Shown here one piece after another: positions 9,001 through 47,313 of a stretch of 64,000 nt of DNA. The DNA is from Clostridia bacterium (GTDB taxonomy: Bacteria; Bacillota; Clostridia; Oscillospirales; Acutalibacteraceae), in NCBI GenBank assembly GCA_017465465.1, contig JAFTWE010000039.1, positions 1 through 64,000 on the forward strand. The letters are read 5' to 3'. Under the pieces are notes generated by a model. The model did no database searches. It saw only the letters and a program-made list of their open reading frames with translations, and was not told the origin of the DNA. A program made the position numbers and the translations under genes. Every line of letters begins with the position of its first letter. Within the stretch, counting starts at the first letter, position 1.

Positions 9001-10613
9001 TAAGTTGCACATTAGGTTCATTTATCTATGTATTCGATGAGACAAATGAAGAAAAAGCAGCAAATCTCGCGGCATCTGGTGATTATACCGGTGCTAAGCA
9101 GGCAATTATTGATTCGGTCAAGGGCAAAGCAGGTGAAGCTCGTTCTGCAATTTCTGACAGAAGCAATAAACTTAATCTAAATGGCAATAGCGAAGGTTTG
9201 GGATATGTCGATGTAACAACGTGGAGTGTTAACTTCTATCCAAAAACCGGCTCCTATGTTTACGCTCACCTTGTTGACAGATGGGGTAATGTATTCAACC
9301 GTGTATGGAAGTGCTTTAATGTTGACTCATATCCGTCTAAAATCAACGGAATTGACGGCGCAGCTGTTTATAACGTATTTGAAGACGGCGGAAGTAACAT
9401 TAATACTGTAACTCTCGACGGTGCAAATGTTGAGTTCATCCTTGATGACAACTCAACCTACGAAAACGGCGTATTCACAACCACAGGCAACACAGTTACT
9501 CTTTCAACCGGTGAGGCTAATAAGACATATAACCTCACTATTGTGGACAACGCAACCAACACCAACACAGTTGCAGTTACAACTGACGGTGACGGCGTAC
9601 TTGTTCTCAATGTTGAAGATGCTTGTGCAGACCTTTCATCCGGTGCCTACACCTTCACCTTAAACGGTGAAACAGTCAACCTCTATGCAGGCGTTGAAAA
9701 GCTCATTTACAGCGCAGATATTACCGAAGTATCAATGGTTGGTGAAGAAACAGTTATAACTGTTAAAACTTCTGATGATGTTCTCAAGCTTCAGCTTGTT
9801 GAAAACGGTGGAACAAGAACATACAACCGTGATGCGGCAGACAGCGTTGTTGAAAATGAAGACGGTACTCTCACCTGGACCATAAGCTTCAAGACCACTA
9901 AGGGTGCTCACGCTTATGACCTTAAGGCAAAGACAATCAACGGTTGGGAAACTACCGAATATGTTCTCGAAACAGAGATTATCGAAGAATATGTTTCAAC
10001 TCCGATTGTATTGAAGTCTGTTGAAAATGCAACAGCAAGCGTTGGTGAAAAGCCTGTTATTAAAGCAAGAACTCAGGTCGGCACTCAGAAGCTTCAGATA
10101 GTTTATGAGAGCGGCGCAACAATCACATACAACCGTAGTGATGATATTGTTATCACAACAGTTGACGATGTTGAAACCTGGGCACTTACTGCTTCTGCTT
10201 ATGGCAAGGCAGGCGAGTACAGCGTAAAAGTTCGTGCTAAGTATAACGGTGAATGGCAGACAGATAACGCTAAGACTTCAACAATTACCGTAACTGAAAA
10301 GGTTGTTGATACAACTCCTGTAATCTACTCAGTTGAGGCTCAGGCTGATTCTGCTAAGGTTGGCGAACTTGTAACCTTTGAAGTTGTTACAAACAGCAAT
10401 GCAGTTAAGGTTCGTTTCAATTATCCTGATGGCGGAACATGGACCTTCAGCGAGGCTGACGGATATGCTGTAGATAACGGAAACGGAACAAAGACTTGGA
10501 CCGTATCAGTTAAGTTCTACTCGGTTGGTGAAAGAGACATCAACTTCAGCACAAGGTCAGTTGACGGTTGGATTGACGGTCAGTCATTCGGTACTATTGA
10601 AGTAACCAAATAA
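1..10613 (+). CDS. Giant secreted InlB B-repeat (Flg_new) surface protein, 5' partial
   Basis: The reading frame is open from the left edge (first full codon at base 3), so the true start lies outside the window; about 3536 codons are visible. Near the N-terminal end two beta-sandwich regions resemble CBM4/9-type carbohydrate-binding modules (codons at about 580-1010 and 1650-2100). From about 1.5 to 7.7 kb there are roughly 19 copies of a motif of the form GY-x-F-x-GWY, typical of InlB B / Flg_new repeats, many alternating with an AYYNTA-like strand and a GGTV turn. The last about 300 residues are three tandem Ig-like repeats ending in EVTK with no LPXTG, dockerin or membrane tail. A role in adhesion or glycan binding outside the cell is inference from the repeat family; signal peptide and N-terminal domains cannot be seen. 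Confidence 0.85.
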   Translation, partial: LVGDTDSTGAATYVETREYFAGDNIYTGYNETPGYSYFGYHRSEEAVEYSIEQFDDWNFVYSLYQGDAASQGIYGLTGNNIDKSYSGENLTYYYFYSRDLHGVYMDHGESDNAFANKENKANISGATIDTAFTSDDTHYNVDGQTNHNGNLWESDVASITTRPTTNGFDFAIKASGVGYNTRVYNAAGKTNLFDFDNYVWTNNATCTATPNLATNSIRVKTTGGDAYVGKYENEGTVYMTLKPGAKYILSYSWYNHADEEVTLLPYVFYSKTNNPVTWQNGNGTLNSFGKTFTGKSGTHSEEFTVPDGMPYVTLRLGINSGAGEDVTFSDVTIVDTTDSSQFAKMNDIFVENIATGLSAGTYTVAFESSLRYDDYRWYAIQSNTYTNIPSMDWAHEKGTIQMFITTTADTDVDNNGENDGKMEAYYVPCRVTTDVSTGGTIATFTLPEGSNGNINLGFCITNDTALSGWVDNIRITEGEYVIVDEKTASTTLPSPTWTGYTFKGWAEKSSPFYGTLGTLASSGTPYTFGVESDTVIADWQINKYDVTFDNEFDFDLGWDNPAAGSFVEYNEDENYFRTKATGGDNYVLHKQYIDIVPGHTYRISYDYVNNDTKVSAGIQNHFFMYDANKSGQSWYTDGQDGFTGKIYYYNIGSSGTISYTILVPEGKEFAKFRVGTCSSTSADVTFSDIYIQDITRGTSTLVHDTSIGEPYFYPASVGSGADVSPTIVHGVVRNYKDTLGDAEMTELPLLNSDLFDFEGWKTDKNGTEVNVTLDDITEAKTNQKWSHWTVHLEYSVGSDCSWKDGYSTPESEWDIAIGSKRNVASYVPYKVGYNFKGWYCAIDDKTYNPGDEITLNHNVALTPVWEKATEAVKGTDYTNLTTLYPGQIYFYSYIPANNEYVSGYLYNSTEGLTLSRYQTGVDDPVAGVEPEENKAYGVSNVESIVSGALTGGTKYYYAITSNETAAKEVTVDFKLSEHYVNYHLNATGEGGSPDQDIVGHYNTAMTPSEPTRTGYTFMGWSETSGNNQGAKELTAAYTNGLIDGSKTFIVEKTLYAAWSINTYKLTVNAYYNTAASSTATGTTWELAKDKNVGGYVQIGNTESKNGTVSADVVFEKSATYQAVPATGYSFAGWYSNPTISNGVITDWGTPDAETAATVTIAKMGAANKTVYARFDINKYTVNISAWNNSSSGLDTYTNSATGGTVKLDDGVADAAASNSYVYGQTYTMTAEAKPGYQFIGWYDITSDITVNDGYNYNSNPVTVTVSENTLNYRARFDIVSQKLTVNFGAEEITESKEYSGYIGDTIAIPVPERDGYDFIGWEQASTPFYGSISGYNYIFGAGNASIIATWKAKTYNITVNPDGGSGDVRYYSGGGEQKTQTVSAETVIPMDYKSIATLGAPTKTGYEFEKWVIESGAGSIESGTTSSDSSEFTVGLGDAVVKATWKVLQYQLTVQAWGNTASSTDTYKLGIGGTVKLGEDGTSEEQVNTMVDFDKKTTIVAQADTGYTFAGWQRTAPTAQLDIISNESKFDTMGTEGLQYFAVFKINEYEVTLNKQYSTADAPNDFVDDTEGKAGTVTGDGSYYYGTNATLQATAKTGYTFNGWYDANNTLVSSNKDYAFAVTGDVNYTARFVVSRHTINTYVYANTAIDEKNFYENSAAGTITGGGEYYYGTKVKLEATAKTGYEFVGWYSDASLTNSKGTDAVLDITVTSTEGYYAKFAVVKVKVNLYAMSNADDLNSYTKNDKGGKVSYDGTNYAPEAENNEYYYSSTTEIYAKPETGYRFDGWYSEETLTTESIGQGTHQSDGSYVYNYTVKGDVAESLYAKFSVDSYSLKVYAYYNTGDALNTFNPGYVGGTVSIVTGDFTVGNVDYADSDGAYASIPVYYERNAKIKALAAYGYSFEGWYISITSDNNFAEDALFSNVDDASTAPMTASGLTYYAKFGVNSFKVAYNPNGGTGEPDASTAYYNTALTLSTVEPSKVGFLFEGWSINKDADTATYKKGVTIPNGTINDWYASYVTTGEEITLYAVWVANANQLKVYSVYSVANQEYRHGDKGGTAKAKDYNNTAEIDEAGNVIVPTGAVVQNYLDINPETGFACVQWRYKTTAPSFTTKGDYEVFEYPFSWGAPGDGQTQMPSEVLHVVVFFEIQTFSANAYAYYNTAAASDTYNYGATGGTVMCPTSEDSKNASNAHSDNQNYNMQVRFIATPAKGYEFTGWYKPDITLGDVVENWGEQFSPNADCLVTLDDTNKKGETANNYYAVFSIKSFNATASVRTYKVREDLIYSLGENNRPGGNPSNDGGVVGVGLTQTSDSSWKWTGEQVYSVTIGASDENRVYYGERVYFEAKANKGYVFGGWYSAKDAEYYGEALVEETELTYSRIMREGHIYMEAKFVPMSFTLVLEANGGTAGNPAEIVVTYGDDIEIESSSIPTKTGSTFLGWADLPSATVATYTIGTIPYGTVNQWFDEVYDEATGSVLSKTIYAVWSVAKVEITFDNQGATGGQSKVEIFVGATLPAVTPPTYDGFVFGGYYENADGTGTPYYNADGTSVKQWNSYSGITLYAKWSCPVLQNIEYDEAAKTWKYTYQGSETGGMETVESKDAVTTASEITTLAEDAETDILWWTLNRNTLNKSHVETQRDSTPTIDLNHYSAEALSNLLTAVKETDTEEKREKLTQPQANAYVAKIAKNIELDFEANRNTTEKEVPTVTLYENAKNVATIKGKTINKENGGSANGSTYSTPPSEDSASYTYAGKWSYTANDAVDYYLYTNSPNPVIALEIGDGDVATTVEGNASSYPTKATITDNAAGYSYVNGGYHTSAVKATDNLDEAWFTQYTTAKIGTAHDYNAKTVIYLTPEFTASGTQNEIVYTISASDDAYVANQGISDTGISGTDANMIFESYRYDAVEAEQIEKDDPSIDRVNDITVCICYHNSMNGESDEGTLDASGTYMQMYMDQVNQDEWLNQLHLFRTSGGAFNWDFPTTTESVYPVEDSTYPYSEISCTLGSFIYVFDETNEEKAANLAASGDYTGAKQAIIDSVKGKAGEARSAISDRSNKLNLNGNSEGLGYVDVTTWSVNFYPKTGSYVYAHLVDRWGNVFNRVWKCFNVDSYPSKINGIDGAAVYNVFEDGGSNINTVTLDGANVEFILDDNSTYENGVFTTTGNTVTLSTGEANKTYNLTIVDNATNTNTVAVTTDGDGVLVLNVEDACADLSSGAYTFTLNGETVNLYAGVEKLIYSADITEVSMVGEETVITVKTSDDVLKLQLVENGGTRTYNRDAADSVVENEDGTLTWTISFKTTKGAHAYDLKAKTINGWETTEYVLETEIIEEYVSTPIVLKSVENATASVGEKPVIKARTQVGTQKLQIVYESGATITYNRSDDIVITTVDDVETWALTASAYGKAGEYSVKVRAKYNGEWQTDNAKTSTITVTEKVVDTTPVIYSVEAQADSAKVGELVTFEVVTNSNAVKVRFNYPDGGTWTFSEADGYAVDNGNGTKTWTVSVKFYSVGERDINFSTRSVDGWIDGQSFGTIEVTK

Positions 10614-35797: not shown

Positions 35798-35833
35798 GAC
35801 CTTGCAGATTTTGTTCTGCAAGGTCAATTTTGT
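35798..35833. terminator. Bidirectional terminator between convergent genes
   Basis: GACCTTGCAGA (35798-35808) pairs perfectly with 35815-35825, T-rich on the plus side; the minus strand downstream is moderately T-rich. Confidence 0.8.
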
Positions 35834-36931
35834 TTATTCTTTTTCTATTTTGCAATAAGTGTCAATATGAGTTTTGTATTTAAGGTAGGTTGCATCTGCT
35901 TTTTCAGAAATACCAGCCTTATTCGCTTTGATTTGAGAAATGTCGCTTATAAACCCTGTCCCGTCTGCAAAGCATTCAACAAGATAATCGTTTATTTCTT
36001 TTGAATAATGGCTGATATCGCGGTAGTTATCGAGGTCGGTTGTTAGTTCAAAACTCTGAAAATCATAGACAGAAACATTTTGATATTGCTGAGCAAGTGT
36101 TACAATTTTCTCTTTTGCGTCGCAAAAAGCATCAAAGTGGCCATTATCTTTTGCATATATCCAATAAAGAGAAGAATATGGAGGGAAAAATAAAACATAT
36201 TCTGTATTATTGTTTAATTCTGAAATGGTTGAAAACAAAAGGTCAACATTGGCGTTTACCGGGGTTTCTACTCCATCTGCTTCAATTTTGCTCACTCCGT
36301 ATCCCCTTTTTTCTAAAGATTTCAAAACTGCATTTTCACCAATGGAAAAGTCACTGTGCCATGCACCAATTTCATCAATATCGGTGGAGCTTTTAATAAA
36401 TGAAGGCACTGTTATATCAAGAGCTTCCATGCCTTTGATGATGAGGTCAACCGGCAAAAATCTGGTATAGACCTCACTGCTGAGAAGATATCTGTAGTCG
36501 TCACTATAACCGTTAATCAAATGTTCAGGAATGTTAAACTCTGCATTGTCAGGGTGAATAGCAAAGCGCTGAAGGTCAACTGAAACAAAAACTTTTTTGC
36601 AGCTTGAGTGTTCATTTATATACTTAAGATAAAAGCAGGTTTCAGGAACAGTCATACCGCCGATGTTAACCTTGAGAAGGTCAAGTCCCATTTTTTCTTT
36701 AAATAAATCAGGGTCAAAGTTTTGAGTCATAGAAGAACCCAGCATAATTGAATCATAGTTATAATTTTTAATTAAACCGGCACAAGAGAATTGGGGATTA
36801 AGATAATATTTATCGTTTTTATCATATCTGTATTGATACAAAGGGTCAACAATAAAAGTAATGCTACTGAGAATCAGTAACAGTACCAGTGAAAAAGAAA
36901 TTGTTGAAATTGCCCATTTTTTATGTGTCAT
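35834..36931 (-). CDS. SGNH/AlgX-like membrane-anchored partner of MBOAT acyltransferase
   Basis: 365 residues. An uncleaved N-terminal helix (about 9-29) leads to an extracytoplasmic SGNH-type domain with MLGSSMTQNF (Ser66 or Ser67 as nucleophile) and RDISHYSKEIND near 305-318 carrying the catalytic Asp and His. This is the architecture of proteins that pair with MBOAT enzymes (DltD, AlgX/AlgJ or PatB types). It begins 9 bp after the MBOAT gene ends, so the pair is one transcript. The likely role is acyl transfer to an extracellular polymer; which polymer is unknown. Confidence 0.82.
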   Translation of the reverse strand: MTHKKWAISTISFSLVLLLILSSITFIVDPLYQYRYDKNDKYYLNPQFSCAGLIKNYNYDSIMLGSSMTQNFDPDLFKEKMGLDLLKVNIGGMTVPETCFYLKYINEHSSCKKVFVSVDLQRFAIHPDNAEFNIPEHLINGYSDDYRYLLSSEVYTRFLPVDLIIKGMEALDITVPSFIKSSTDIDEIGAWHSDFSIGENAVLKSLEKRGYGVSKIEADGVETPVNANVDLLFSTISELNNNTEYVLFFPPYSSLYWIYAKDNGHFDAFCDAKEKIVTLAQQYQNVSVYDFQSFELTTDLDNYRDISHYSKEINDYLVECFADGTGFISDISQIKANKAGISEKADATYLKYKTHIDTYCKIEKE

Positions 36932-36940
36932 AAAAATCCC

Positions 36941-38365
36941 TCAGAAATTAAAATAGATAAATACGCTTTCTCTTGAAATAAATAAAACAGAAACCGTAAA
37001 AAGAACGGCAATAATAACTGAATTTAAGATTGTCGGCTTGAAATTTTTTGATTTTTCAATGACATTTTTGCTTAAGAAAACAACAAGGAATAAGCCAATA
37101 ATCATAACGAAAACATAAGCTAAAGCGATGGGAGTAGGAATCCCCATAATTCCGTCATCAGTAAGGTTGGCAACGGCAGAAATACCGGGGTTTGAGAAAT
37201 TGCCCATTGCTTTATATATACTGAGTGCCTGGTCAAAGCTTTCTGCTCTGAAAAGAACCCATAAAGCGTTAGTTATTAAAAAAGTAACGGTGATTTTGAT
37301 TGTTTTTGGAATTTTAACAAGTATTTTTGAAAAAATCTTTTCAAAAACAATGCAAAGACCGTTAAGACCTCCCCACAAAACAAAGGTCCAGCTTGCACCG
37401 TGCCAAAGTCCGCTTAATAAAAAGGTTATCATATAATTTATATACATTCTTATTTTGCCTTTACGGTTGCCGCCTAAGGGGATGTAAATAAAGGTGCGTA
37501 ATGCTCTGCCGAGAGTAATGTGCCAGCGCTTCCAGAATTCACCGATACTTTGTGATTTGTAAGGTGAATTAAAGTTCAGCGGAATATCAATGTTAAACAT
37601 CTTTCCAAGGCCTATTGCCATATCAGAATAACCTGAGAAATCAAAATAAATCTGCAAAGTATAACTCAGTGAAGTTATCCACCCGGCGGCAAAAGAAAGC
37701 TCGTCTGAATTGAAGCCGTTGTTTACAAAGATATTAAGTGTATCGGCAATTACCAGCTTTTTGAACAGACCAAGCACAAAAATATAAATGCCTTTGCTGA
37801 AATTTTCAATTTTAAAACGTCGGTTTTCAGGATTTATGAATTGTGGCATCATTTCAGAGTAAGAAACGATGGGTCCTGCAACGAGCTGAGGGAAAAAGCT
37901 TACAAAAAGTGAATATGTTAAAATATCTTCAACCTTTTCTTCTTTTTTATAAACAGAAATAATAAATGAAAGCTGTTGAAAAGTAAAGAAGCTGATACCA
38001 AGCGGTAACAGAATATTTTTCAAAACAAAATCAGTGCCGAAAACAGAGTTGATGTTTTCAACAAAAAAGTCATAATATTTAAAATAGCCTAACAATCCGA
38101 GATTAAATAGAACTCCCGCAACACATAATCCTCCGGACAGCCATTTTTTATTAAAGGTTTTACTTATATAATAACCAATCAGGTAATTGATAACGATTGA
38201 AGCCAAAATGATAGGCAGATAGCTTATGTTAAAGTATGCATAGAAAAACAGAGAAGCGGCGACCAGAATAATGTTTTGAATAAGCATACTTTTGTGTGCG
38301 CAGAAATAGCCTATTAAAACAACAGGCAAAAATGCAAACACAAATTCATAAGATGAGAAAACCAT
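36941..38365 (-). CDS. MBOAT family membrane O-acyltransferase (AlgI/DltB-like)
   Basis: 474 residues from the ATG at 38365, which follows CAGGTGATT; the frame extends 23 codons upstream without a site. About 11 membrane helices. Diagnostic motifs are LPLGISFFTFQQLSFIISVY, LQIYFDFSGYSDMAIGLGKMFNI, FWKRWHITLGRALRTFIYIPLGG and FLLSGLWHGASWTFVLWG, the last with the catalytic histidine. It moves an acyl group across the membrane onto a secreted glycan together with the SGNH protein downstream. No acyl-carrier or dlt genes lie nearby, so teichoic-acid D-alanylation is not indicated. Confidence 0.93.
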   Translation of the reverse strand: MVFSSYEFVFAFLPVVLIGYFCAHKSMLIQNIILVAASLFFYAYFNISYLPIILASIVINYLIGYYISKTFNKKWLSGGLCVAGVLFNLGLLGYFKYYDFFVENINSVFGTDFVLKNILLPLGISFFTFQQLSFIISVYKKEEKVEDILTYSLFVSFFPQLVAGPIVSYSEMMPQFINPENRRFKIENFSKGIYIFVLGLFKKLVIADTLNIFVNNGFNSDELSFAAGWITSLSYTLQIYFDFSGYSDMAIGLGKMFNIDIPLNFNSPYKSQSIGEFWKRWHITLGRALRTFIYIPLGGNRKGKIRMYINYMITFLLSGLWHGASWTFVLWGGLNGLCIVFEKIFSKILVKIPKTIKITVTFLITNALWVLFRAESFDQALSIYKAMGNFSNPGISAVANLTDDGIMGIPTPIALAYVFVMIIGLFLVVFLSKNVIEKSKNFKPTILNSVIIAVLFTVSVLFISRESVFIYFNF

Positions 38366-38423
38366 AAAATAATCACCTGAAAAACGATTTAATAATATAC
38401 TGATGAAAGATAAAACTGACCTG

Positions 38424-38455
38424 AAAATCCCCACAGAGGTTTCTGCGGGGATTTT
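38424..38455 (-). terminator. Terminator of the 38458-39264 gene
   Basis: AAAATCCCC stem of about 13 bp with one mismatch and a GGTT loop, followed by T on the minus strand. Confidence 0.7.
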
Positions 38456-38457
38456 AC

Positions 38458-39264
38458 TTATTGCACTTCTGTTTCTGCAACAGCTGTGGTAGTTGTTGTG
38501 CTTTTCTCTGCGGCGAGGGCGTTAAGGTCTTTGCCGAGGGCATCGGGGAACTGATAATCTGCAAAGGGGAACTGGCCGTGAAGATATTTCATCTGAAAAT
38601 CGACCGTAGGGCTTGTAACGCCCAGATAGCACTGATAAATTGCGGCGTTATAATATAAATTCTCAAGCATATCAGCGTGGTTGCTTGCTCTGTAGCCTGC
38701 CTTGTCAACGGTAACGGTAAAGAGATTGCCGTTTCTGTTACAGCTTACAAGCTGAACGCCGTTTTTCTTTTCATATTCGTTGCCCTTGTTTTCATAATAT
38801 TCATAGAGGTTTTCAACCATCGACGGATAAAAAGATGTCTTAACGGTGTAGACGACATTAACATCGTCTTTTTTAACGCTTAAGTAGCCGTTTGAAAGCT
38901 GGTCCTCGGTGAGGGTGTCGGCGGGAACATCTCCCTGATAATATGCAAGGGGAACGGTGATTTCAACAGTTTCTTTAGTGAGGTCGAGAAGTGAATTTTC
39001 AACAACAATAACCTCGTCACTGCTTTCATGACCTTGCTGAACAGCCGCGGCGGCAGTTTCACCCTCAACGTCAAAATGCTGTTCTTTAACACTGTTGTCG
39101 CTTATGTACCACACAAGAAGCACAAGGAAAAACAGCGCAACAAAAGCAGATACGGCAATTATTGCCTTTTTGCTTTTACTGTTTTGCTTAACATCAGGGT
39201 CAAGCTCCTGCTGATAATCTTTTTTTGGCATAACTTCCTGTGATGCATTTTTGTTTTTTTTCAT
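38458..39264 (-). CDS. Single-pass membrane protein, function unknown
   Basis: 268 residues from ATG 39264 with GAGGAGA upstream. A polar, basic cytosolic N-terminus (about 35 residues), a membrane helix at about 36-57 and an extracytoplasmic domain of about 200 residues of alternating beta strands and helices, ending in a Thr-rich tail. No catalytic signature was recognised. A perfect promoter lies just upstream, so it is transcribed apart from the transglutaminase gene. Abundant membrane-exposed function is all that can be inferred. Confidence 0.65.
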   Translation of the reverse strand: MKKNKNASQEVMPKKDYQQELDPDVKQNSKSKKAIIAVSAFVALFFLVLLVWYISDNSVKEQHFDVEGETAAAAVQQGHESSDEVIVVENSLLDLTKETVEITVPLAYYQGDVPADTLTEDQLSNGYLSVKKDDVNVVYTVKTSFYPSMVENLYEYYENKGNEYEKKNGVQLVSCNRNGNLFTVTVDKAGYRASNHADMLENLYYNAAIYQCYLGVTSPTVDFQMKYLHGQFPFADYQFPDALGKDLNALAAEKSTTTTTAVAETEVQ

Positions 39265-39299
39265 AAAGAGTCTCCTCTCAAGCAATGCACTATGAGAAC

Positions 39300-39328
39300 A
39301 TTATATTATCACTTGACGATTTTGTCAA
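39300..39328 (-). promoter_or_regulatory. Consensus sigma-A promoter of the 38458-39264 gene
   Basis: Minus-strand TTGACA (39323-39328), 17-bp spacer, TATAAT (39300-39305): a perfect consensus, in the short gap after the transglutaminase gene. Confidence 0.85.
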
Positions 39329-39339
39329 ATAAATTAGCT

Positions 39340-40512
39340 TTAATCAAAATAAAGGTCAAGGGCGTTACGCTCCTTGGTTTCAATATAGCCCACAGATTGG
39401 GTGCTGAGGTCCGTACCGTAAATTTTGTTGGCAGAGCTTACAATCTTGTAAATCCTGCCGTTTGTGATGAGATATCTGACAGCCTCATTGTAATATGCTT
39501 CGCTTCTGAAACGGATTTCAATATGACCGTCGGGGCTTTGTGCCATAAGCTGTTTCAGCCTTGCAACTGCCTTTGAATTAAGGGAGCTGAAAAGGCGGTC
39601 GGTCTTAGCAAAGTAATTTGCCTTTGTGCTTGTGCAGTCAAAAAACTGAGGATAGCCGAAGTGGTCAATAGAAATTTCTTCATCACTCAGGTTCATAAAA
39701 AGGTGAGATAGTGTTTCTTGTGAATTTTCGGCGGTGGGGTCGTCCCAGGTAACATCCAGGTGATAATATTCACCGTCTATTTTTATTATGTTCCACATGT
39801 GGCCCTCGGTTTTGCCGTCATAATTCACAGCCTCACCCGAAACGGTGTAGCACTCAAGCCCTGCTTTTTCGCAAAGGAGCTTTGCGGCCTTTGAATAGCC
39901 CTCGCAGGCAGAAAGTCCGTCAATCAGGCAGCTGTATGGGGTGGAGGAGGTTTCGGCAACGGTCACATCGTAGGTGCATTTGTTTACAATATAATCGTGA
40001 ATGAAAAGCTCTGTTTCAAATTCGTCTGAGCCTTCCGGCAGTTGGGCCAGAATCTGCTCACAGACGCTGTTTAAGGTGTTTGCTCTCACCCTTTGTTCAG
40101 GGGGAGTTAAAGTGTAGCTTGGCTTAAAAAAGCAAAGCCCGTCAGAGGTTGCAATGGTGCTGTTGCGCCCAAAGCACATAAGAGTAGGGTTGTCGTAATT
40201 AAGAGCCTGAATAACCTCGGTCAACTCATCGCCTGTCATAAGCGGAATCTGAATGAGGGTAGGGAATTCTGCTTCTGCATTGTAAACCTCAGAAAGAATG
40301 TGGTTATATGCCTTTTTCTGCGCTTCGTCAAGAGCGCCGAAATGATTTTTATAAGCTGAGCCAAGCTCACTTTCTTCTGCTGAAACCTCGTTCCAGTTGA
40401 TAACCGTATCAGAGCCGAAAACAGAATCAACAGCCTCTAAAATTTCAGTTTTATGGCTGACGGCAACTGCGATTAAAACAAGCACCAGCGTCAGTGATAA
40501 AAATTTTTTCAT
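39340..40512 (-). CDS. Exported transglutaminase-like protein
   Basis: 390 residues with an N-terminal hydrophobic segment (3-19) acting as signal or anchor. The transglutaminase-like core has Cys203 in LSACEGYSKA, His238 in EGHMWNIIKI and Asp253 in YHLDVTWDDP, a full catalytic triad. Family members act as proteases, amidases or cross-linkers outside the cell. It lies 8 bp downstream of the LCP-like gene and is the last gene of the probable operon starting with the Rnf-like genes. AGGTGG precedes the ATG. The substrate is unknown; a cell-wall partner is suggested by the LCP-like neighbour. Confidence 0.85.
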   Translation of the reverse strand: MKKFLSLTLVLVLIAVAVSHKTEILEAVDSVFGSDTVINWNEVSAEESELGSAYKNHFGALDEAQKKAYNHILSEVYNAEAEFPTLIQIPLMTGDELTEVIQALNYDNPTLMCFGRNSTIATSDGLCFFKPSYTLTPPEQRVRANTLNSVCEQILAQLPEGSDEFETELFIHDYIVNKCTYDVTVAETSSTPYSCLIDGLSACEGYSKAAKLLCEKAGLECYTVSGEAVNYDGKTEGHMWNIIKIDGEYYHLDVTWDDPTAENSQETLSHLFMNLSDEEISIDHFGYPQFFDCTSTKANYFAKTDRLFSSLNSKAVARLKQLMAQSPDGHIEIRFRSEAYYNEAVRYLITNGRIYKIVSSANKIYGTDLSTQSVGYIETKERNALDLYFD

Positions 40513-40520
40513 ACTGCCAC

Positions 40521-41369
40521 CTATTTAAGCTCTTCTACCGAGCTGACGGCAACTGCCTTTGCGCCCTCTTTTTGAGCAATAAGCTCAATCACATCAAGGT
40601 TGTCGGCGGTGTCAACAAAAGAAATGTTGCTGTTGCCCGAAAGCTCGCCTAAAACGCCTTTGTAAATTTTCATCGGGTCTTCCATATTTTCGGGAGTGAT
40701 ATAATTTTCTGCCATTGCGCAGAATAAATCAGCCTGACCTGAAAGCCCTGCTTCTTTAAAATATTTGAGATATTTCAAAAGAGATTCACCGCGGATAGTC
40801 TGCTTGCCGGGGGTGAGGATAAGGGTGAGGTCCTCGGTTCTGTATTCAATTCTTTCGGGCACGGTGTATTCCACGCCGTCCATATAGTTGATTGCAAGGG
40901 CAAAGGTGTTTTCGTTTGATGAAACATAGCGGTCAATTTCTATGCCGTAATCAGCGCTTACCGCATTCATAACCTCGTTTTCGCCGCCTGCTTCATAGCT
41001 TTTAAGATAGCTGTTTTTTACCTGAATGGGGCAGATTTTTACTTCAGCGTCTGAAGCGTCAGCCTTGGCAAGGACCATAAAATAAATTTCTTTTTCCCCT
41101 GTTTCGGCGGTTTTGGTTGAAGAGATGCTCATAAAAAGAATTGTGGCATCTCCCGTGTTGCCCGAAAGGGAGCCTTCGTCCTGAGAGTCTTTTTCAAAAA
41201 CGGACATAATTTTGTCAAGATTAAAGCTGTCAACCTTTGAAGAAAGATACACCAATGTTCCGCTTCCGAAAACAAGAATAAACGCAACAAAGCCAAGGAT
41301 GATGTATTTCCACCGTCCTTTTTTCTGCACCCTGACAGGGTTAAAAAGTCTTTCGTCTTTTTTGCTCAT
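40521..41369 (-). CDS. LytR-CpsA-Psr-like membrane protein, degenerate
   Basis: 282 residues: a basic cytosolic N-terminus, a membrane helix (about 21-44), then a domain resembling an LCP fold. Readable correspondences are ATILFMSIS (LCP strand 1), IEIDRYVSSNENTFALAINYMDGVEYTVPE (LCP core) and LTPGKQTIRGESLLKYLKYF (LCP repeat region before the RxxRQ helix). The PRDS/T motif that contacts the pyrophosphate and the basic residues near it are not evident, so enzymatic ligation of glycopolymers is doubtful. Located in the probable operon between GH13 and transglutaminase genes, 9 and 8 bp from them. Confidence 0.6.
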   Translation of the reverse strand: MSKKDERLFNPVRVQKKGRWKYIILGFVAFILVFGSGTLVYLSSKVDSFNLDKIMSVFEKDSQDEGSLSGNTGDATILFMSISSTKTAETGEKEIYFMVLAKADASDAEVKICPIQVKNSYLKSYEAGGENEVMNAVSADYGIEIDRYVSSNENTFALAINYMDGVEYTVPERIEYRTEDLTLILTPGKQTIRGESLLKYLKYFKEAGLSGQADLFCAMAENYITPENMEDPMKIYKGVLGELSGNSNISFVDTADNLDVIELIAQKEGAKAVAVSSVEELK

Positions 41370-41378
41370 AAACTCACT

Positions 41379-43226
41379 TTACCTTTTTAAAATTACTGAT
41401 GAGTTTCCGGAAATGCTGACAGAAATTCCGTCACATTCGCCCTCACCGAAAATAATATAACTGCCGTGTCTGTCCTCAGGGAGGAAATATCTTATGGGGT
41501 GATTGTTGCTGTTTGAAACAACGGTGATTTCATCTCTTGAAAAAGCCACACAGCCCATCACCGCAGAAATAAATCTGCAAGGGGCTGACTTAAACTGCGG
41601 GCATTCTCTTCTTACCTTTCCCAATGTGCGGTAAAATTCCGTAAGCTCGCCGTTTTCTTTTCCCCAAGGGAAATACCCTCTGTTAAAGGGGTCCTTATAG
41701 CCCTCCATACCTGCTTCGTCACCGTAATAAATACTGGGCACACCGGGGAGGGTGAACTGCAAAACTGCCGCCTGCTTTAAAAGGCGGATGCCAAGCTGTT
41801 TTTTATCTTCATCAAGGGTTCTGCCCGATTGCCACTCTCTGTCACGGTAGATACAGCTTTCTCCCGCAAGGGCGGTGATTGCCCTTTGAGTGTCGTGAGT
41901 GCCGATATGATTCATAAGCACATCAATAACGGGCTTAGGATAATTTTCGGTAACGGTGGCAACTGTTTTTTCAAAGCTTTCAGCATTGCCTCGGCGGACA
42001 AAATCAATTATGCAATCCGCAAAGGGATAATTCATAACGCTGTCAAGCTGTTCGCCCTGCAAATATCTGCGGCGCTTGCCGTAGCTTGATTTGTTGGAGG
42101 CATCCTCCCACACTTCACCGATAATAATTGCATCGGGTGAATGTGATTTGACACCCTTTCTCAGCGCGTCAAGAAATTCATCGGGCAGCTCGTCTGCAAC
42201 ATCAAGCCTCCAGCCGCCTGCGCCCAAAGAAAGCCACTTTTTTATTATGCCGTTTTCACCTGAAATGTAATCAATAAATTCGGGGGTTTCTTCAATAATT
42301 TCGGGCAGAGTTTCAATGCCCCACCAGCTGTGGTATTTCTCAGGCCAATTAACGAATTTAAACCAAGGATAATAGTCAGATTCCTTGCTTTGATACGCAC
42401 CCTTGTCGGGGTATCTGCCGTTTTTGTTAAAATATCGGCTGTCACTTCCCGTATGGCTGAAAACGCCGTCGAGAACAATTTTTATTCCAAACTCACGAGC
42501 CTTTTTGCAAAGAGAAGCAAAATCCTTTTCGTTGCCCAAAAGGGGGTCGATTTTTTCATAATCTGCGGTGTCGTATCGGTGATTGGAGTGAGCCTCAAAA
42601 ATGGGGTTGAGGTAAATGCAGTTAACCCCAAGAGAGCTGATGTAGGGGAGCTTTTCTTCAATGCCCTTAAGGTCACCGCCAAAATAATCGTTGTTGAGAA
42701 TTTTGCCGTTTTTGTCAGGGCGCCAATAAGGCTCTGCGTCGTAGTCGGTTCTTAAAATTCTGTCCTCAGGGACTCCCTCTTTTTTCTTCCCCGAGTTATA
42801 AAATCTGTCGGGAAAAATCTGATAAATTACGCCGCCCTTTAACCAATCGGGGGTGGTGAAATTTTTGTCGTAAACGGTAAACTGCCACTCTTCCCCCGAG
42901 GGAGAAAAGCAACCGTTGAGTGTGTCACGGTAGCGGAAAATCTTGCTTACGCCAAAGCCCGTGTCATATTCAAAGAAGTAAAAATACAAGCCCCTTTCAG
43001 GGAAAGAAAGCTGAACCTTCCACCATTCTTCGTTTTCACCTTGCATACAGTCCCACCACATAGGGTAGCGGACCGCCTCTTCGCCGTCTTTGGTTATAAC
43101 CACTCTTGCTCCCGTGCAGGCAAAATCTCTGGGCAAAACAATTCTGAAGGTGATTTCGGTTTCTTCCTTCACCGCACCGAGGGGGTATTTATGATATTCT
43201 TTTGTGGGAATATATGGAATATACAT
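41379..43226 (-). CDS. GH13 alpha-amylase family enzyme (neopullulanase/cyclomaltodextrinase-like)
   Basis: 615 residues, no signal peptide. An N-terminal beta domain (about 1-120) comes before the TIM barrel starting with GGVIYQIFPDRF. Conserved motifs: DGVFSHTG (253-260), catalytic nucleophile Asp342 in GWRLDVADE, acid/base Glu371 in IIGEVWED and Asp445 in NHIGTHDTQR. It ends with a short beta domain. It hydrolyses alpha-1,4/1,6-linked glucans or oligosaccharides in the cytosol. It is start-to-stop coupled to the small membrane protein upstream (gap 2 bp) and sits in the Rnf-like operon. Confidence 0.9.
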   Translation of the reverse strand: MYIPYIPTKEYHKYPLGAVKEETEITFRIVLPRDFACTGARVVITKDGEEAVRYPMWWDCMQGENEEWWKVQLSFPERGLYFYFFEYDTGFGVSKIFRYRDTLNGCFSPSGEEWQFTVYDKNFTTPDWLKGGVIYQIFPDRFYNSGKKKEGVPEDRILRTDYDAEPYWRPDKNGKILNNDYFGGDLKGIEEKLPYISSLGVNCIYLNPIFEAHSNHRYDTADYEKIDPLLGNEKDFASLCKKAREFGIKIVLDGVFSHTGSDSRYFNKNGRYPDKGAYQSKESDYYPWFKFVNWPEKYHSWWGIETLPEIIEETPEFIDYISGENGIIKKWLSLGAGGWRLDVADELPDEFLDALRKGVKSHSPDAIIIGEVWEDASNKSSYGKRRRYLQGEQLDSVMNYPFADCIIDFVRRGNAESFEKTVATVTENYPKPVIDVLMNHIGTHDTQRAITALAGESCIYRDREWQSGRTLDEDKKQLGIRLLKQAAVLQFTLPGVPSIYYGDEAGMEGYKDPFNRGYFPWGKENGELTEFYRTLGKVRRECPQFKSAPCRFISAVMGCVAFSRDEITVVSNSNNHPIRYFLPEDRHGSYIIFGEGECDGISVSISGNSSVILKR

Positions 43227-43228
43227 TA

Positions 43229-43600
43229 TTATTGCTCCGGAATGTTTTGATTATCAGGCTGTGAAGCTTCTTCACTCTGAGATGTGTTGCTCTCATCAAC
43301 CTCACTTGAGGGGTTGGTGGGCAAAAGAGTGGTGCTTTCTGCTGTGGTTGTGTTTTGCGGAAGGTAGGTTTTTGAATCGTGATACTCTGTTTCTGAAATA
43401 TCAAGAAGTGCATCAGAAATTATAAATCCCACCGCGATAAAAACCAATGTTATTAAAATTATAAAAACATATTTAAAAATATTTTTGAAAAAAATCTTTC
43501 TCTTTTGTGACTCGCTTATTGAAAAGGAGTCGTTATATTGATTTTCTTTAAAATCAGCAAAGGCTTTTCTGCGCCTTGCGCCGTTATTTCTCTGGGCCAT
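43229..43600 (-). CDS. Small single-pass membrane protein with Ser/Thr-rich tail
   Basis: 123 residues from ATG 43600 with AAAGGAG upstream; the longer frame from 43672 has no site and overlaps rnfA-like. A cytosolic N-terminus rich in basic residues, a membrane helix at about 40-65 and an exposed Ser/Thr/Pro/Gln-rich tail of about 55 residues. No domain recognised. It lies between the Rnf-like module and the GH13 gene, with 13-bp and 2-bp gaps, indicating tight co-transcription. Confidence 0.6.
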   Translation of the reverse strand: MAQRNNGARRRKAFADFKENQYNDSFSISESQKRKIFFKNIFKYVFIILITLVFIAVGFIISDALLDISETEYHDSKTYLPQNTTTAESTTLLPTNPSSEVDESNTSQSEEASQPDNQNIPEQ

Positions 43601-43613
43601 AAATAACTCCTTT

Positions 43614-44207
43614 CTAAGCAAATACTCCTGAGCCGGTGATGCCTGTAACTGCCATTGACAAAAGCGCAACATAAATAAACATTATCGGAGTGCCCTTGAA
43701 CGGCTCGGGAATTTTCTTGTTGTGAGCAATTTTGGTAAAGCCGACGCTTATGAGAAGTGAAGCCACAATAAATGCAACCCCTGAGCCGAAGGCTGTGCCG
43801 ATACTTTCCCAAAAGGTGCTCACGCTTCTGTGGTTAATAAGGGGAATTGCCATAACAAGCGTGTTCATTGCGCACATAGAAATTTTAGTCATAAATCGCT
43901 TGTCGGGCTTGAGAATAATCAGACTCAGTGCGCCCGAAACAAAATAAACCGCCATCAGCACACCGAAAAAGATGAGAAAATGAATGGTCTGATTTTGACT
44001 TTCAATAACAGGGATGTAATCGAGCAAGCGGCAGATTACGGCAGTAACGGTTGAAAAATAAATAATCATACCCGCCGTTGAAAAAAGCTTTTTGGGCTTT
44101 GACGCCATTCTGATTGCTTCGCTTATACCGTATCCGCCGTTGAACACAAGATTCTGCACGATTACGGCATAAATTGCCGCACTGAGCATATCGAAAAACC
44201 ACACCAC
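43614..44207 (-). CDS. Rnf/Nqr-like electron transport subunit A (RnfA/RsxA family)
   Basis: 197 residues starting with GTG at 44207, 8 nt after GGAGG; the earlier GTG at 44216 lies inside that site. Six membrane helices in the RnfA pattern: Q18-N19-L20-V near the start, NTLVMAIPLI in the middle and TKIAHNKKIPEPFKGTPIMFI near the end. Cysteine positions are partly altered: Ser29 replaces the cysteine of the usual GICP, while Cys112 lies near the expected second one. Membrane subunit of an ion-translocating oxidoreductase by family. Neighbour of E and D subunits but not of B, C or G. Confidence 0.85.
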   Translation of the reverse strand: MVWFFDMLSAAIYAVIVQNLVFNGGYGISEAIRMASKPKKLFSTAGMIIYFSTVTAVICRLLDYIPVIESQNQTIHFLIFFGVLMAVYFVSGALSLIILKPDKRFMTKISMCAMNTLVMAIPLINHRSVSTFWESIGTAFGSGVAFIVASLLISVGFTKIAHNKKIPEPFKGTPIMFIYVALLSMAVTGITGSGVFA

Positions 44208-44216
44208 ATTCTCCAC

Positions 44217-44375
44217 CTCCTGAAATTTAAAGCTTTCGGCGTATCAAGCCGTTTTTGTCTTGAAATACACCTGTATGTCGGCGACAAAGAAACGGCTCGC
44301 TACACCAAAATCTTTACAATTTGGGTTGCCAAAAGGTAACTCTGTCGCAATTTTAAAATTAAATCATATTATAAA
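44217..44375 (-). other. Intercistronic region with long hairpin between Rnf-like E and A genes
   Basis: About 160 bp without a gene. A 51-nt imperfect hairpin occupies 44247-44297: AGCCGTTT and TTGTC arms pair with GACAA and AAACGGCT, with a small inner ATAC/GTAT stem. An alternative CGGC/GCCG pair (44237-44251) shares one arm. No T run follows, so it is not a simple terminator; it could be an RNA processing or attenuation element. Confidence 0.45.
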
Positions 44376-45083
44376 TTAAGAATTCTTTTTAAATCTGTTT
44401 CTGATTGCATAAGTGAGGGTTGCTTCCTTGTCGTCGCTTTCATCAAGGGTAAACCTTGATTCAATTTCGTGAAGCTTTGACGGCTGTCTTTTAATAATCT
44501 GCGCCTTATGTGCCGCAGAAAGAATGCCGATTACAAAAAGTCCGCCAAAGGGCATAAGAAGTCCGCTTAATCCGTCAATAAAAGGAATATCAATTCCCAG
44601 AATTTTTCCGCTTCCCAAAACCTCTCTTATGAGCCCTACCGCCAAAAGAATTGAGCAGTAGCCCAGAAGTGAAGCTATGGCATCAAAAAAACTCAGCTTT
44701 ACCGAATGCTTAACTGCGTATTTTTCACAATGAACACAGTTGAGCGAGCTCATTACCATAAGGGGAAGATAAATTCCCAAGGAAGAAAAGGTAGCAAAGG
44801 AATATTTTTCAAAAACATACATAACGGGGAAAACCACAATTATTCCTATAACAGAATAAATTCCCATTCTCACCCAGCGGGGAACTTTTTTGAGAAAAAG
44901 TGAGGCAAAAACCTCGCACAAAATCAAAGACAGTGAAAACACAACCGACAGCGCAAGGGCATTTAAAACCGATGTTGCCGCCGCGGCAACGGGGCAGATG
45001 CCGATTACCTGCACAAGAACAGGGTTTCGGATAAATCCGCCAAGTCGAATCATTTTTTTAAGTGAGGCTTTCTGTTGGCTCAA
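44376..45083 (-). CDS. Rnf/Nqr-like electron transport subunit E (RnfE/RsxE family)
   Basis: 235 residues starting with TTG at 45083, where GGAGG lies 9 nt upstream inside the D gene; overlap with it 26 bp. Membrane core: RNPVLVQVIGICPVAAAATSVLNAL near 19-43 with Cys30 as in the normal family, and GIYLPLMVMSSLNCVHCEKY near 102-122. In canonical proteins a cysteine stands where Ser113 is here; instead a C116-x2-C119 pair follows a few residues later. It ends with a hydrophilic C-terminal extension of about 45 residues. Part of the D-E-A module. Confidence 0.9.
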   Translation of the reverse strand: MSQQKASLKKMIRLGGFIRNPVLVQVIGICPVAAAATSVLNALALSVVFSLSLILCEVFASLFLKKVPRWVRMGIYSVIGIIVVFPVMYVFEKYSFATFSSLGIYLPLMVMSSLNCVHCEKYAVKHSVKLSFFDAIASLLGYCSILLAVGLIREVLGSGKILGIDIPFIDGLSGLLMPFGGLFVIGILSAAHKAQIIKRQPSKLHEIESRFTLDESDDKEATLTYAIRNRFKKNS

Positions 45084-46023
45084 CAGTATTCACCTCCGCT
45101 TTTTTCTTTTTGGCTTTGAAAATATATTTTTCTGCCGCAGGCCAGAAGGCATTTGTAAGAAGAACGGCAAAACTGCCTGCATCCTCATAAGAGCTGACCT
45201 GATTTAAAATAATATAAACAACGCCCATCATCACACCGTAAAAAATTCTGTGTAAATTCTTTTTGGGCGAAAGCGCTTCCTCCGTAACAAAGAAAACCGC
45301 AATGCACAGGGTAAATCCGCTGCACATTCTAAGGCAGATAATTCTCAACGCGTTGGGGCTGAAAAGATTATCCGCGCTGATTGCGGTTAAAATCACTGCA
45401 CCGACAAAGCAGGTTAAAAGAAAGCTCAGGGAGTTAATGAAGCTCTTCGGATGCCTTATAAGCACAACGGCCAGAAGCCCCAGCATTGCCACGGCGCAGG
45501 TCATGCCCGACGGACCGGGAACGGCGCCGATAAAAGCATTGATTAAATCCACCGCGGTAACAATGGGTGTGCCTTGTGAAAGGCTTTGTGCTATTGAAGC
45601 TCCGCCGACTTCTGCCGAGGTGTAAGAAAAAATCAAATCGGGCTTGCAGATGCTCATAAAAGCAACACCTGCCGCAACGCTCGAAAACGGCGCGTGATTC
45701 AGCGAGCCAAAGGGGGTTTTAACAAGAAAGATTGAAAAAGCACAGCTTACAACAGGCACCCAGAGGGGAACGGTTGCCGGCAGCATAAGAGCGGTCAGTC
45801 CGCCGATAAAAAGAGCGTGGCAATTTTTAATTTTGAATTTGTGCTTTATAATTTTGCAGCCGATATAATCAAAAGCCACAGCGCTTATAACCGATACGGC
45901 AAAATTCATTAAAGCTACCGTACCGTTGAGCGCAACTGAAACCGTGAGCAGAACGAGCATCGCAAAGCACATATCGGGATAATAAGTGCTTTTCTTTTTT
46001 CTGTGTTTGTGTAACCCGGGCAT
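45058..46023 (-). CDS. Rnf/Nqr-like electron transport subunit D (RnfD/NqrB family)
   Basis: 321 residues from ATG 46023, chosen because AAAGAGGTG lies just upstream; an ATG 18 bp earlier lacks a site. Nine or ten membrane helices. The FMN-carrier motif S-G-A-T is present as PSGMT with Thr175 in place of the covalently modified residue, so flavin binding is plausible. Rnf D subunits link quinol-like electron flow to Na+ or H+ movement. It is first in the probable operon; no rnfC or rnfG gene is adjacent. Confidence 0.9.
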   Translation of the reverse strand: MPGLHKHRKKKSTYYPDMCFAMLVLLTVSVALNGTVALMNFAVSVISAVAFDYIGCKIIKHKFKIKNCHALFIGGLTALMLPATVPLWVPVVSCAFSIFLVKTPFGSLNHAPFSSVAAGVAFMSICKPDLIFSYTSAEVGGASIAQSLSQGTPIVTAVDLINAFIGAVPGPSGMTCAVAMLGLLAVVLIRHPKSFINSLSFLLTCFVGAVILTAISADNLFSPNALRIICLRMCSGFTLCIAVFFVTEEALSPKKNLHRIFYGVMMGVVYIILNQVSSYEDAGSFAVLLTNAFWPAAEKYIFKAKKKKAEVNTVEPTESLT

Positions 46024-46051
46024 CTGCTCACCTCTTTCCATATTTTATTCA

Positions 46052-46120: not shown

Positions 46121-46663
46121 GTGAACATTCATTCTCTGGGCAAAAATAAGTTTATTGTGGAGCTTTCCAGAAGTGATATGCAGGAATTAGACATTACATA
46201 CGAGGAAATGGATTACTCCAAAATCGAAACCCGTCGGGTTATCTGGACAATTCTGCAAAAGGTCCGTGACGATTTCGGCAAGGATGTTGACCCGACAGGG
46301 AACTTGCTTATTGAAGCCTCTGCAGATTCTCAGGGAGGCTGTGTGCTGAGCTTTACCGTAAGCGAAAAGCGAAGAAGCTGCGACCTTCGTCAGGCGTTGA
46401 AGCTTACAAAAACCACCGACAGCATCGTTTATGAATTCAGCTCAGAAAATGCCTTGCTGGATATGCTCACTGCGGTGGGAGCCTCTGCTTTTAAAAATCA
46501 GAACAGACTTTTTAAAAACGGTGAACGCTTCCGCCTTGTGCTAAAAAAGCAACCGGGCTATGCCGATAAAATGCTCATAGAAGAATACGGCGCTCAGGTG
46601 GGCAGAGACACTCTGACCCTCAGCCATACCTTTGAGCATTGGCAAAGTGTGGGAATGCTTTAA
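46121..46663 (+). CDS. mecA: MecA-type adaptor protein for Clp protease
   Basis: 180 residues, GTG start 7 nt after AAAGGAGG. The N-terminal domain MNIHSLGKNKFIVELSRSDMQELDITYEEMDY matches MecA/YpbH, and the C-terminal part has the expected alpha/beta layout. It delivers proteins to ClpCP for breakdown and, in Bacillus, down-regulates competence. Somewhat shorter than Bacillus MecA (218). Divergent from the Rnf-like operon and overlapping rpe tail-to-tail by 4 bp. No terminator room. Confidence 0.82.
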   Translation: MNIHSLGKNKFIVELSRSDMQELDITYEEMDYSKIETRRVIWTILQKVRDDFGKDVDPTGNLLIEASADSQGGCVLSFTVSEKRRSCDLRQALKLTKTTDSIVYEFSSENALLDMLTAVGASAFKNQNRLFKNGERFRLVLKKQPGYADKMLIEEYGAQVGRDTLTLSHTFEHWQSVGML

Positions 46664-47313
46664 GCGTTGCGGATGCTTTCAATAGCGGCAGAGGTATCTT
46701 CTGCACCGAAAACGGCACTGCCTGCCACAAGCACATCAGCTCCCGCCTTCTTAACAAGGGGGGCGGTTTTTTCGGCTATTCCGCCGTCAACCTGAATGTG
46801 AACAGAAAGATTTCTTCTGTCAATTTCTTCCCTGATAGCCTTGATTTTGGGGAGCATATCTGCCATAAAGCTCTGGCCGCCAAAGCCCGGCTCAACGGTC
46901 ATAACAAGCACCATAGATATTTTATCAAGATACGGAAAAACAGCCTGAGCAGGAGTGCCGGGTTTAACGCTCAGAGCAGGGATTTTTCCGTATTTTTTGA
47001 TTTCTTCAATAGTTTCGTCAATGTCGCTGTCACTTTCAACGTGAAAGGTGATTCCGTCAGCGCCTGCGTTTGCAAAATCCTTAATGTAAAAAAGCGGGTC
47101 GCTTATCATCAGGTGAACATCAAAAAACTTCTCACTGTGGCGGCGGAACATTTTCATAACAGGTGCGCCAAAGGTAATGTTTGGCACAAAGTGACCGTCC
47201 ATAACATCAACATGAATCCAGTCTGCGCCGCAACGGTCAATTTTAGCAATTTCTTCCCCGGCTTTTGAAAAGTCGCAGGCAAGAATTGACGGTGAAATTA
47301 AAATTTTGTTCAT
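46660..47313 (-). CDS. rpe: Ribulose-phosphate 3-epimerase
   Basis: 217 residues, full length. (beta/alpha)8 barrel with ISPSILACDF, WIHVDVMDGHFVPNITFG, DVHLMISDP, MTVEPGFGGQSFM and VDGGI, including the metal-binding His and Asp residues. It interconverts ribulose 5-phosphate and xylulose 5-phosphate in the pentose phosphate pathway. Its start overlaps the stop of the phosphoesterase upstream (ATGA), so the two are translationally coupled. A long plus-strand frame over it is only a shadow. Confidence 0.96.
   Translation of the reverse strand: MNKILISPSILACDFSKAGEEIAKIDRCGADWIHVDVMDGHFVPNITFGAPVMKMFRRHSEKFFDVHLMISDPLFYIKDFANAGADGITFHVESDSDIDETIEEIKKYGKIPALSVKPGTPAQAVFPYLDKISMVLVMTVEPGFGGQSFMADMLPKIKAIREEIDRRNLSVHIQVDGGIAEKTAPLVKKAGADVLVAGSAVFGAEDTSAAIESIRNA

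Follow-up and report, generated by a model that had tools for sequence, protein, structure and literature searches.

The 64-kb window analysed here (positions 1 to 64,000 of contig JAFTWE010000039.1, from a Clostridia bacterium of the Acutalibacteraceae) carries on its minus strand genes for RnfD-, RnfE- and RnfA-like membrane proteins which, judged from their sequences, very probably form a maintained, redox-dead Rnf membrane core. No rnfB, rnfC or rnfG gene occurs within the window, as an earlier note on this DNA had said, and rnfG and rnfB are absent throughout the paralogous loci of other genomes. The source genome (G000; 2.47 Mb, 97.7% complete) holds two PF03116 and four PF02508 genes, and on its contig C44 an ApbE-like gene and a small membrane protein gene are followed by rnfC, D, G, E, A and B. 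Because this canonical rnf run is complete, the D-E-A set of the window is a paralogue, i.e. a second copy. In an order-wide search read by eye, two RnfA matches were present in 23 of the 24 genomes taken as paralogue carriers, consistent with carriers holding both the canonical and the second copy.

In the Rnf complex of Acetobacterium woodii a buried [2Fe-2S] cluster is bound by C25 and C113 of RnfA together with C25 and C108 of RnfE, while RnfD carries flavin mononucleotide (FMN) covalently on T156 and contacts riboflavin through N123 and D249; mutating the cluster cysteines or the riboflavin residues N123/D249 abolishes activity (PMC11889175). We mapped these cofactor positions, as well as those of the ion path, onto about 90 paralogues by alignment. 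In RnfA the first cysteine is found in 0/90 sequences and C113 in 8/91, and in RnfE C25 is kept in 70/90 and C108 in none of 90. No locus has two or more of the four ligands: 71 out of 84 loci have one and the other 13 have none, with Ser-Thr-Cys-Ser being the commonest set of residues at the four positions (53/84). A Glu follows the first lost cluster Cys in most of the family (72 of about 90 paralogues), the window-type group included. RnfD has fared similarly, as T156 is matched in only 5/91 paralogues (all five of which look misaligned), N123 is present in 20 and replaced in 71, and D249 is kept in 61/91. The window itself retains one of the four cluster cysteines, the RnfA pair having become Ser and Thr and the second RnfE Cys having become Ser, and its covalent-FMN site, normally (S/T)ATPL, reads SIAQSL, with Gln replacing the Thr. 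Canonical controls from the same order retain nearly all cluster cysteines and FMN sites. Where relatives keep an RnfC, its two 4Fe-4S motifs are intact (9/9), whereas the Gly-rich NADH/FMN loop is seen in 0/9 against 7/7 canonical RnfC proteins; the loop was scored by aligned columns, as a strict GGAGFP test wrongly flags canonical RnfC. Since cofactor ligands are lost from D, E and A alike, electron passage is unlikely even with borrowed entry subunits.

Two departures were also seen among the canonical sets. The canonical RnfD of the source genome (G000:C44, L037 3612-4607) has Ser for Thr at the covalent-FMN site (TTASPL), and six other canonical RnfD copies of the order differ from it in this respect. 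At L053 (G054:C9) a C-D-G-E-A-B cluster has Gly at the equivalents of RnfA C25 and RnfE C108, suggesting that cluster ligands may be lost even in a complete Rnf.

The second copy is conserved well beyond this genome. In other species, both within the genus and within the family, RnfD relatives of 32-72% identity occupy the equivalent locus, and a scan of named genomes, built on an alignment of the closer relatives, returned 77 loci from metagenome-assembled genomes labelled Clostridia, Clostridiales, Clostridiaceae, Bacillota, Oscillospiraceae or Ruminococcaceae, many of them from herbivore guts. Among the 60 loci with enough upstream DNA, D and E are present in 59, a ribulose-phosphate epimerase (RPE) gene lies upstream in 48 and a divergent mecA-like gene in 40. 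Conserved gene order also joins D-E-A to the GH13, LCP-like and transglutaminase genes, all three being present in 28 of the 52 loci with at least 5.5 kb of downstream DNA. Compared with genome G008, the ratio of nonsynonymous to synonymous substitution rates (dN/dS) is 0.15 for D, 0.13 for E and 0.10 for A (0.09 for GH13), and thus D, E and A are under purifying selection. In a tree of RnfE a single branch (support 99/95) sets all 30 paralogues apart, and on this sequence tree they are of one origin. A class-wide search of 291 genomes separated copies from the same taxonomic order (at least 208 bits) from all others (at most 140 bits), and the best-scoring of the latter, which are canonical, retain all four cluster cysteines. 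The divergent run of C, E, A and DUF4015 genes at L055 6532-12145 (G042), whose RnfE has a long N-terminal extension, groups loosely between the canonical and paralogous sets.

Some relatives, including G040, show the order RPE-C-D-E-A, and because of these we infer an order of loss in which G and B went first, then the NADH/FMN loop of C with its Fe-S motifs kept, and finally, in the lineage of the window, C itself.

Predicted structures indicate that the Rnf fold is retained in D and A. The AlphaFold model of the window RnfD (mean predicted local distance difference test, pLDDT, 85.5) finds 9eri_D and 7zc6_D as its best Foldseek matches, at template modelling (TM) scores of 0.77-0.82, and that of RnfA (pLDDT 79) finds 7zc6_A and 8ahx_A at about 0.7. 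The RnfD-like model also weakly matches urea and ammonium transporters, ranked after the Rnf/Nqr chains, and the RnfA model gives weak matches to the Na+-translocating methyltransferase Mtr (probability 0.5-0.66) that we regard as a lead only. Selected residues of the ion path are likewise kept. In A. woodii, Na+ has been placed in RnfA/E, mutations of RnfE R67 and E115 have effects, and the side chain of RnfA N112 has a role (PMC11889175). Among the paralogues N112 is invariant (91/91), R67 is kept in 89/90, E115 in 82/90 and N107 in 75/90; the window retains the equivalents of R67 and E115 in RnfE and of N112 in RnfA.

The layout of the locus agrees exactly with that given in the earlier note. 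A Pfam scan and starts supported by ribosome-binding sites (RBS) give the minus-strand order RnfD-, RnfE- and RnfA-like proteins, a small protein with one transmembrane (TM) segment, GH13, LytR_cpsA_psr and Transglut_core; spacing computed from these starts (RnfD 46023, RnfA GTG 44207, small protein ATG 43600) is a 26-bp overlap followed by gaps of 168, 13, 2, 9 and 8 bp. The RnfD-like protein (45058..46023, 321 aa) matches PF03116 (NQR2_RnfD_RnfE; E 5e-47) and starts at ATG 46023, with an in-frame ATG at 46041 as an alternative. The RnfE-like protein (44376..45083, 235 aa) matches PF02508 (Rnf-Nqr; 1.4e-29), with RsxE/RnfE as its best NCBIfam model. The RnfA-like protein (43614..44207; PF02508, 7.7e-15), assigned GTG 44207 by its RBS in a reading frame open from 44216, scores only 38.7 bits against TIGR01943 of NCBIfam (cut-off 229), and it was this weak score against rnf models that first hinted at divergence. 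The gap between rnfE and rnfA (44217..44375) is filled by a long, near-perfect palindrome (folding z -4.8), single-copy in the genome, as opposed to a gap of about 30-35 bp in the closest relatives; it is apparently an insertion specific to this strain.

Downstream of RnfA lies the one-TM stub (43229..43600, 123 aa; RBS and ATG 43600), which has no Pfam family. In many relatives a DUF4015 domain (PF13200), a putative glycosidase, is fused to a TM anchor at this position, and the stub has both the same position as and a similar TM segment to the N-terminal anchor of these TM-DUF4015 proteins. DUF4015 appears to have shrunk to the stub where the trio of GH13, LCP and transglutaminase genes is present; the source genome has no DUF4015 gene. 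The putatively catalytic motif [FY]D[YE][IV]R[FY]P, of the FDYIRFP type seen in the solved relative 4s1a, is missing from all 26 long DUF4015 copies. Elsewhere DUF4015 is fused to YkyA, a domain also joined to polysaccharide deacetylases (PMC12700454), and these fusions fit an envelope setting. Next comes a GH13 enzyme resembling maltodextrinase or neopullulanase (41379..43226; PF00128, 2e-56), with no signal peptide seen, whose conserved regions I-IV (Asp, Glu, Asp) are kept in 39/40 relatives and intact in the window. The LCP-fold membrane protein (40521..41369; PF03816, 1e-12; partial PDB matches to TagT/TagV) is better termed a pseudo-LCP, because the catalytic Arg motif PR[DNE] occurs in 0/43 relatives; the earlier label of LCP-like thus holds for the fold and is too generous for the catalytic site. 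The exported transglutaminase-like protein of the cysteine protease superfamily (39340..40512; PF01841, 4e-9; PDB 9crn) has its Cys-His-Asp triad in 42/42 relatives.

The earlier note had ended the series at 39340. Its seven genes stand, and the same-strand series runs on to 35834 through a one-TM protein, ORF275 (38458-39285), an MBOAT/DltB-like gene (36941-38434) and an SGNH/DltD-like gene (35834-36931), all three of which are conserved in G012 and the first also in G008. A predicted minus-strand sigma-70-type promoter at 39300..39328 (TTGACA-17-TATAAT, 12/12 consensus match) suggests that ORF275, MBOAT and SGNH (35834..39285) form a separate transcript. The MBOAT/DltB-like and SGNH/DltD-like pair, which ends at a strong bidirectional terminator (35798-35825), is likely a glycan O-acylation unit. 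On the other flank are a divergent, plus-strand MecA-family adaptor gene (46121..46663; PF05389, 3e-11), a conserved neighbour, and the minus-strand ribulose-phosphate 3-epimerase gene (46660..47313), assigned by sequence and conserved position, which serves as a marker of the locus. Far from these genes, 300-10613 encodes a 3437-aa protein with many repeated InlB-type (MucBP/Flg_new-like) segments, as read by eye.

What might such a core do? The explanation that we favour, tentatively and at somewhat short of an even chance, is that of a membrane module without redox function, probably coupled to ions, that serves a complex of the envelope; we infer both its coupling to ions and its part at the envelope. 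Duplication of rnf would have given rise to a dedicated, redox-inactive RnfD-RnfE-RnfA paralogue, maintained alongside the normal Rnf. The RnfE-RnfA pair would form a cation path switching between inward and outward states, driven by an ion gradient and no longer by electrons, in which the Ser-Thr-Cys-Ser set and the new Glu could make up for the negative charge that the reduced cluster provides. The stub (or TM-DUF4015), the pseudo-LCP and the transglutaminase-like protein would form a surface complex that receives this movement and handles an envelope glycan or peptide, while GH13 would act on a cytoplasmic glucan. The single-TM partner, with a layout like that of RnfG (one TM, outside domain), may occupy RnfG's place. 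It is a more doubtful step, which we put forward as a possibility, that an electron-driven pump has here turned into a gradient-driven, non-redox motor or transporter that powers assembly outside Gram-positive-type cells and has pseudo-enzymes for outer parts.

Several observations weigh against this explanation. Only position ties D-E-A to the envelope genes, and the DUF4015 lineage (f26) lacks adjoining GH13, LCP and transglutaminase genes. Two RnfA path residues, E88 (1/91) and T110 (0/91), are lost, and the retained N112, R67 and E115 may be structural rather than ion-conducting. Na+ passage in Rnf is said to require reduction of the [2Fe-2S] cluster (PMC11889175), and as this cluster is lost a cluster-free ion path is a guess. 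Lastly the copy is patchy, being carried by 4 of 17 same-genus species (several of the genomes are incomplete), and so is dispensable.

The same residues and partners can be read in other ways. The core could be a transporter or flippase whose solute, a small molecule or a lipid-linked precursor, is used by the envelope proteins and crosses either through the ammonium/urea-transporter fold of RnfD or by alternating access in RnfA/E. The weak structural matches of the RnfD-like model agree with this, and the RnfD relationship has also been stated elsewhere (PMC12174285); the cofactor pockets have been freed of their ligand attachment sites, and the pseudo-LCP and pseudo-GH domains could bind substrate. 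We found no substrate-site signature, however, in a single-chain RnfD model whose pore was not viewed in atomic detail, and we consider a transporter rather unlikely, if the most serious of the rivals. A pure scaffold, anchoring and positioning surface proteins with no transport, would account for the loss of all cofactor sites and for two further partners that look inactive (the DUF4015 motif missing from 26/26 and the LCP motif from 43/43). Yet it seems costly to build a scaffold from three polytopic proteins whose buried polar residues N112, R67 and E115 have been kept selectively, and we judge this reading unlikely.

That the module is still redox, as an alternative membrane core borrowing canonical C, G and B or using non-covalent flavins, strikes us as improbable. 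The genome does supply canonical C, G and B and an ApbE-like gene, one RnfE Cys and the riboflavin-site Asp are frequently kept, and C with its two 4Fe-4S motifs persists in relatives; but the cluster cysteines never exceed one of four, the equivalent A. woodii mutations abolish activity (PMC11889175), the riboflavin-site Asn is mostly replaced, and the RnfC of relatives lacks the NADH/FMN loop. Of the two fates that the earlier note had offered, a reduced machine or a new use, the former is therefore not supported, as the cofactor ligands of D, E and A are lost, and a new use fits best over decay. The ligand losses and the weak RnfA score are what a decayed duplicate kept by chance in an operon would show, and the complete rnfCDGEAB cluster on C44 is there, which is half of what the note had named as refuting its reading. 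Nevertheless, dN/dS of about 0.1-0.15, intact frames, one origin and a gene order conserved across genomes whose RnfA proteins are 33-88% identical all argue against decay, and we rejected it as scarcely credible with D, E and A under purifying selection.

Electron-ion coupling in Rnf and NQR is debated, with the path placed either in RnfA/E or in RnfD. A paralogue in which the electron sites are gone and certain ion-path residues of RnfA/E remain amounts to a natural experiment on this coupling: if it still conducts Na+, the RnfA/E path is separable from redox. The locus is also a sign that common gut bacteria may have an envelope system not yet described, and it cautions annotators that matches to RnfD, E and A alone are no proof of Rnf-based energy conservation.

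We found no earlier description of a matching system in the open-licence literature, and the loss of redox sites in a conserved second D-E-A copy is a new and well supported finding. Compared with Rnf itself (A. woodii 9eri, Clostridium tetanomorphum 7zc6), which couples ferredoxin:NAD+ oxidoreduction to Na+/H+ pumping, the module has homologous D, E and A subunits with the same predicted fold, a D...E-A order and some ion-path residues, but it lacks G, B and, in the window, C, its [2Fe-2S] ligands and covalent FMN Thr are gone, the C of its relatives has no NADH/FMN loop, and it coexists with a complete Rnf. With the NQR/RNF-like two-subunit systems it shares a reduced set of subunits whose NqrB/RnfD-like member is devoid of the flavinylation Thr (PMC8238504, PMC11334425). 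Those systems, however, include an NAD-binding domain as well as a flavinylated RnfG-like subunit, have no E/A and are read as redox, whereas the window RnfD-like protein consists of PF03116 without the NAD-binding domain PF00175, and its cluster has no FMN-binding gene. A further parallel is Na+-NQR, which likewise goes back to a duplication of the rnf operon followed by loss of RnfB, and whose NqrA has lost the cofactors of RnfC (PMC4014512, PMC11889175). The two nonetheless took different courses, as NQR retained the cluster, the flavins and NqrC and gained NqrF, whereas the module described here kept no tested redox site.

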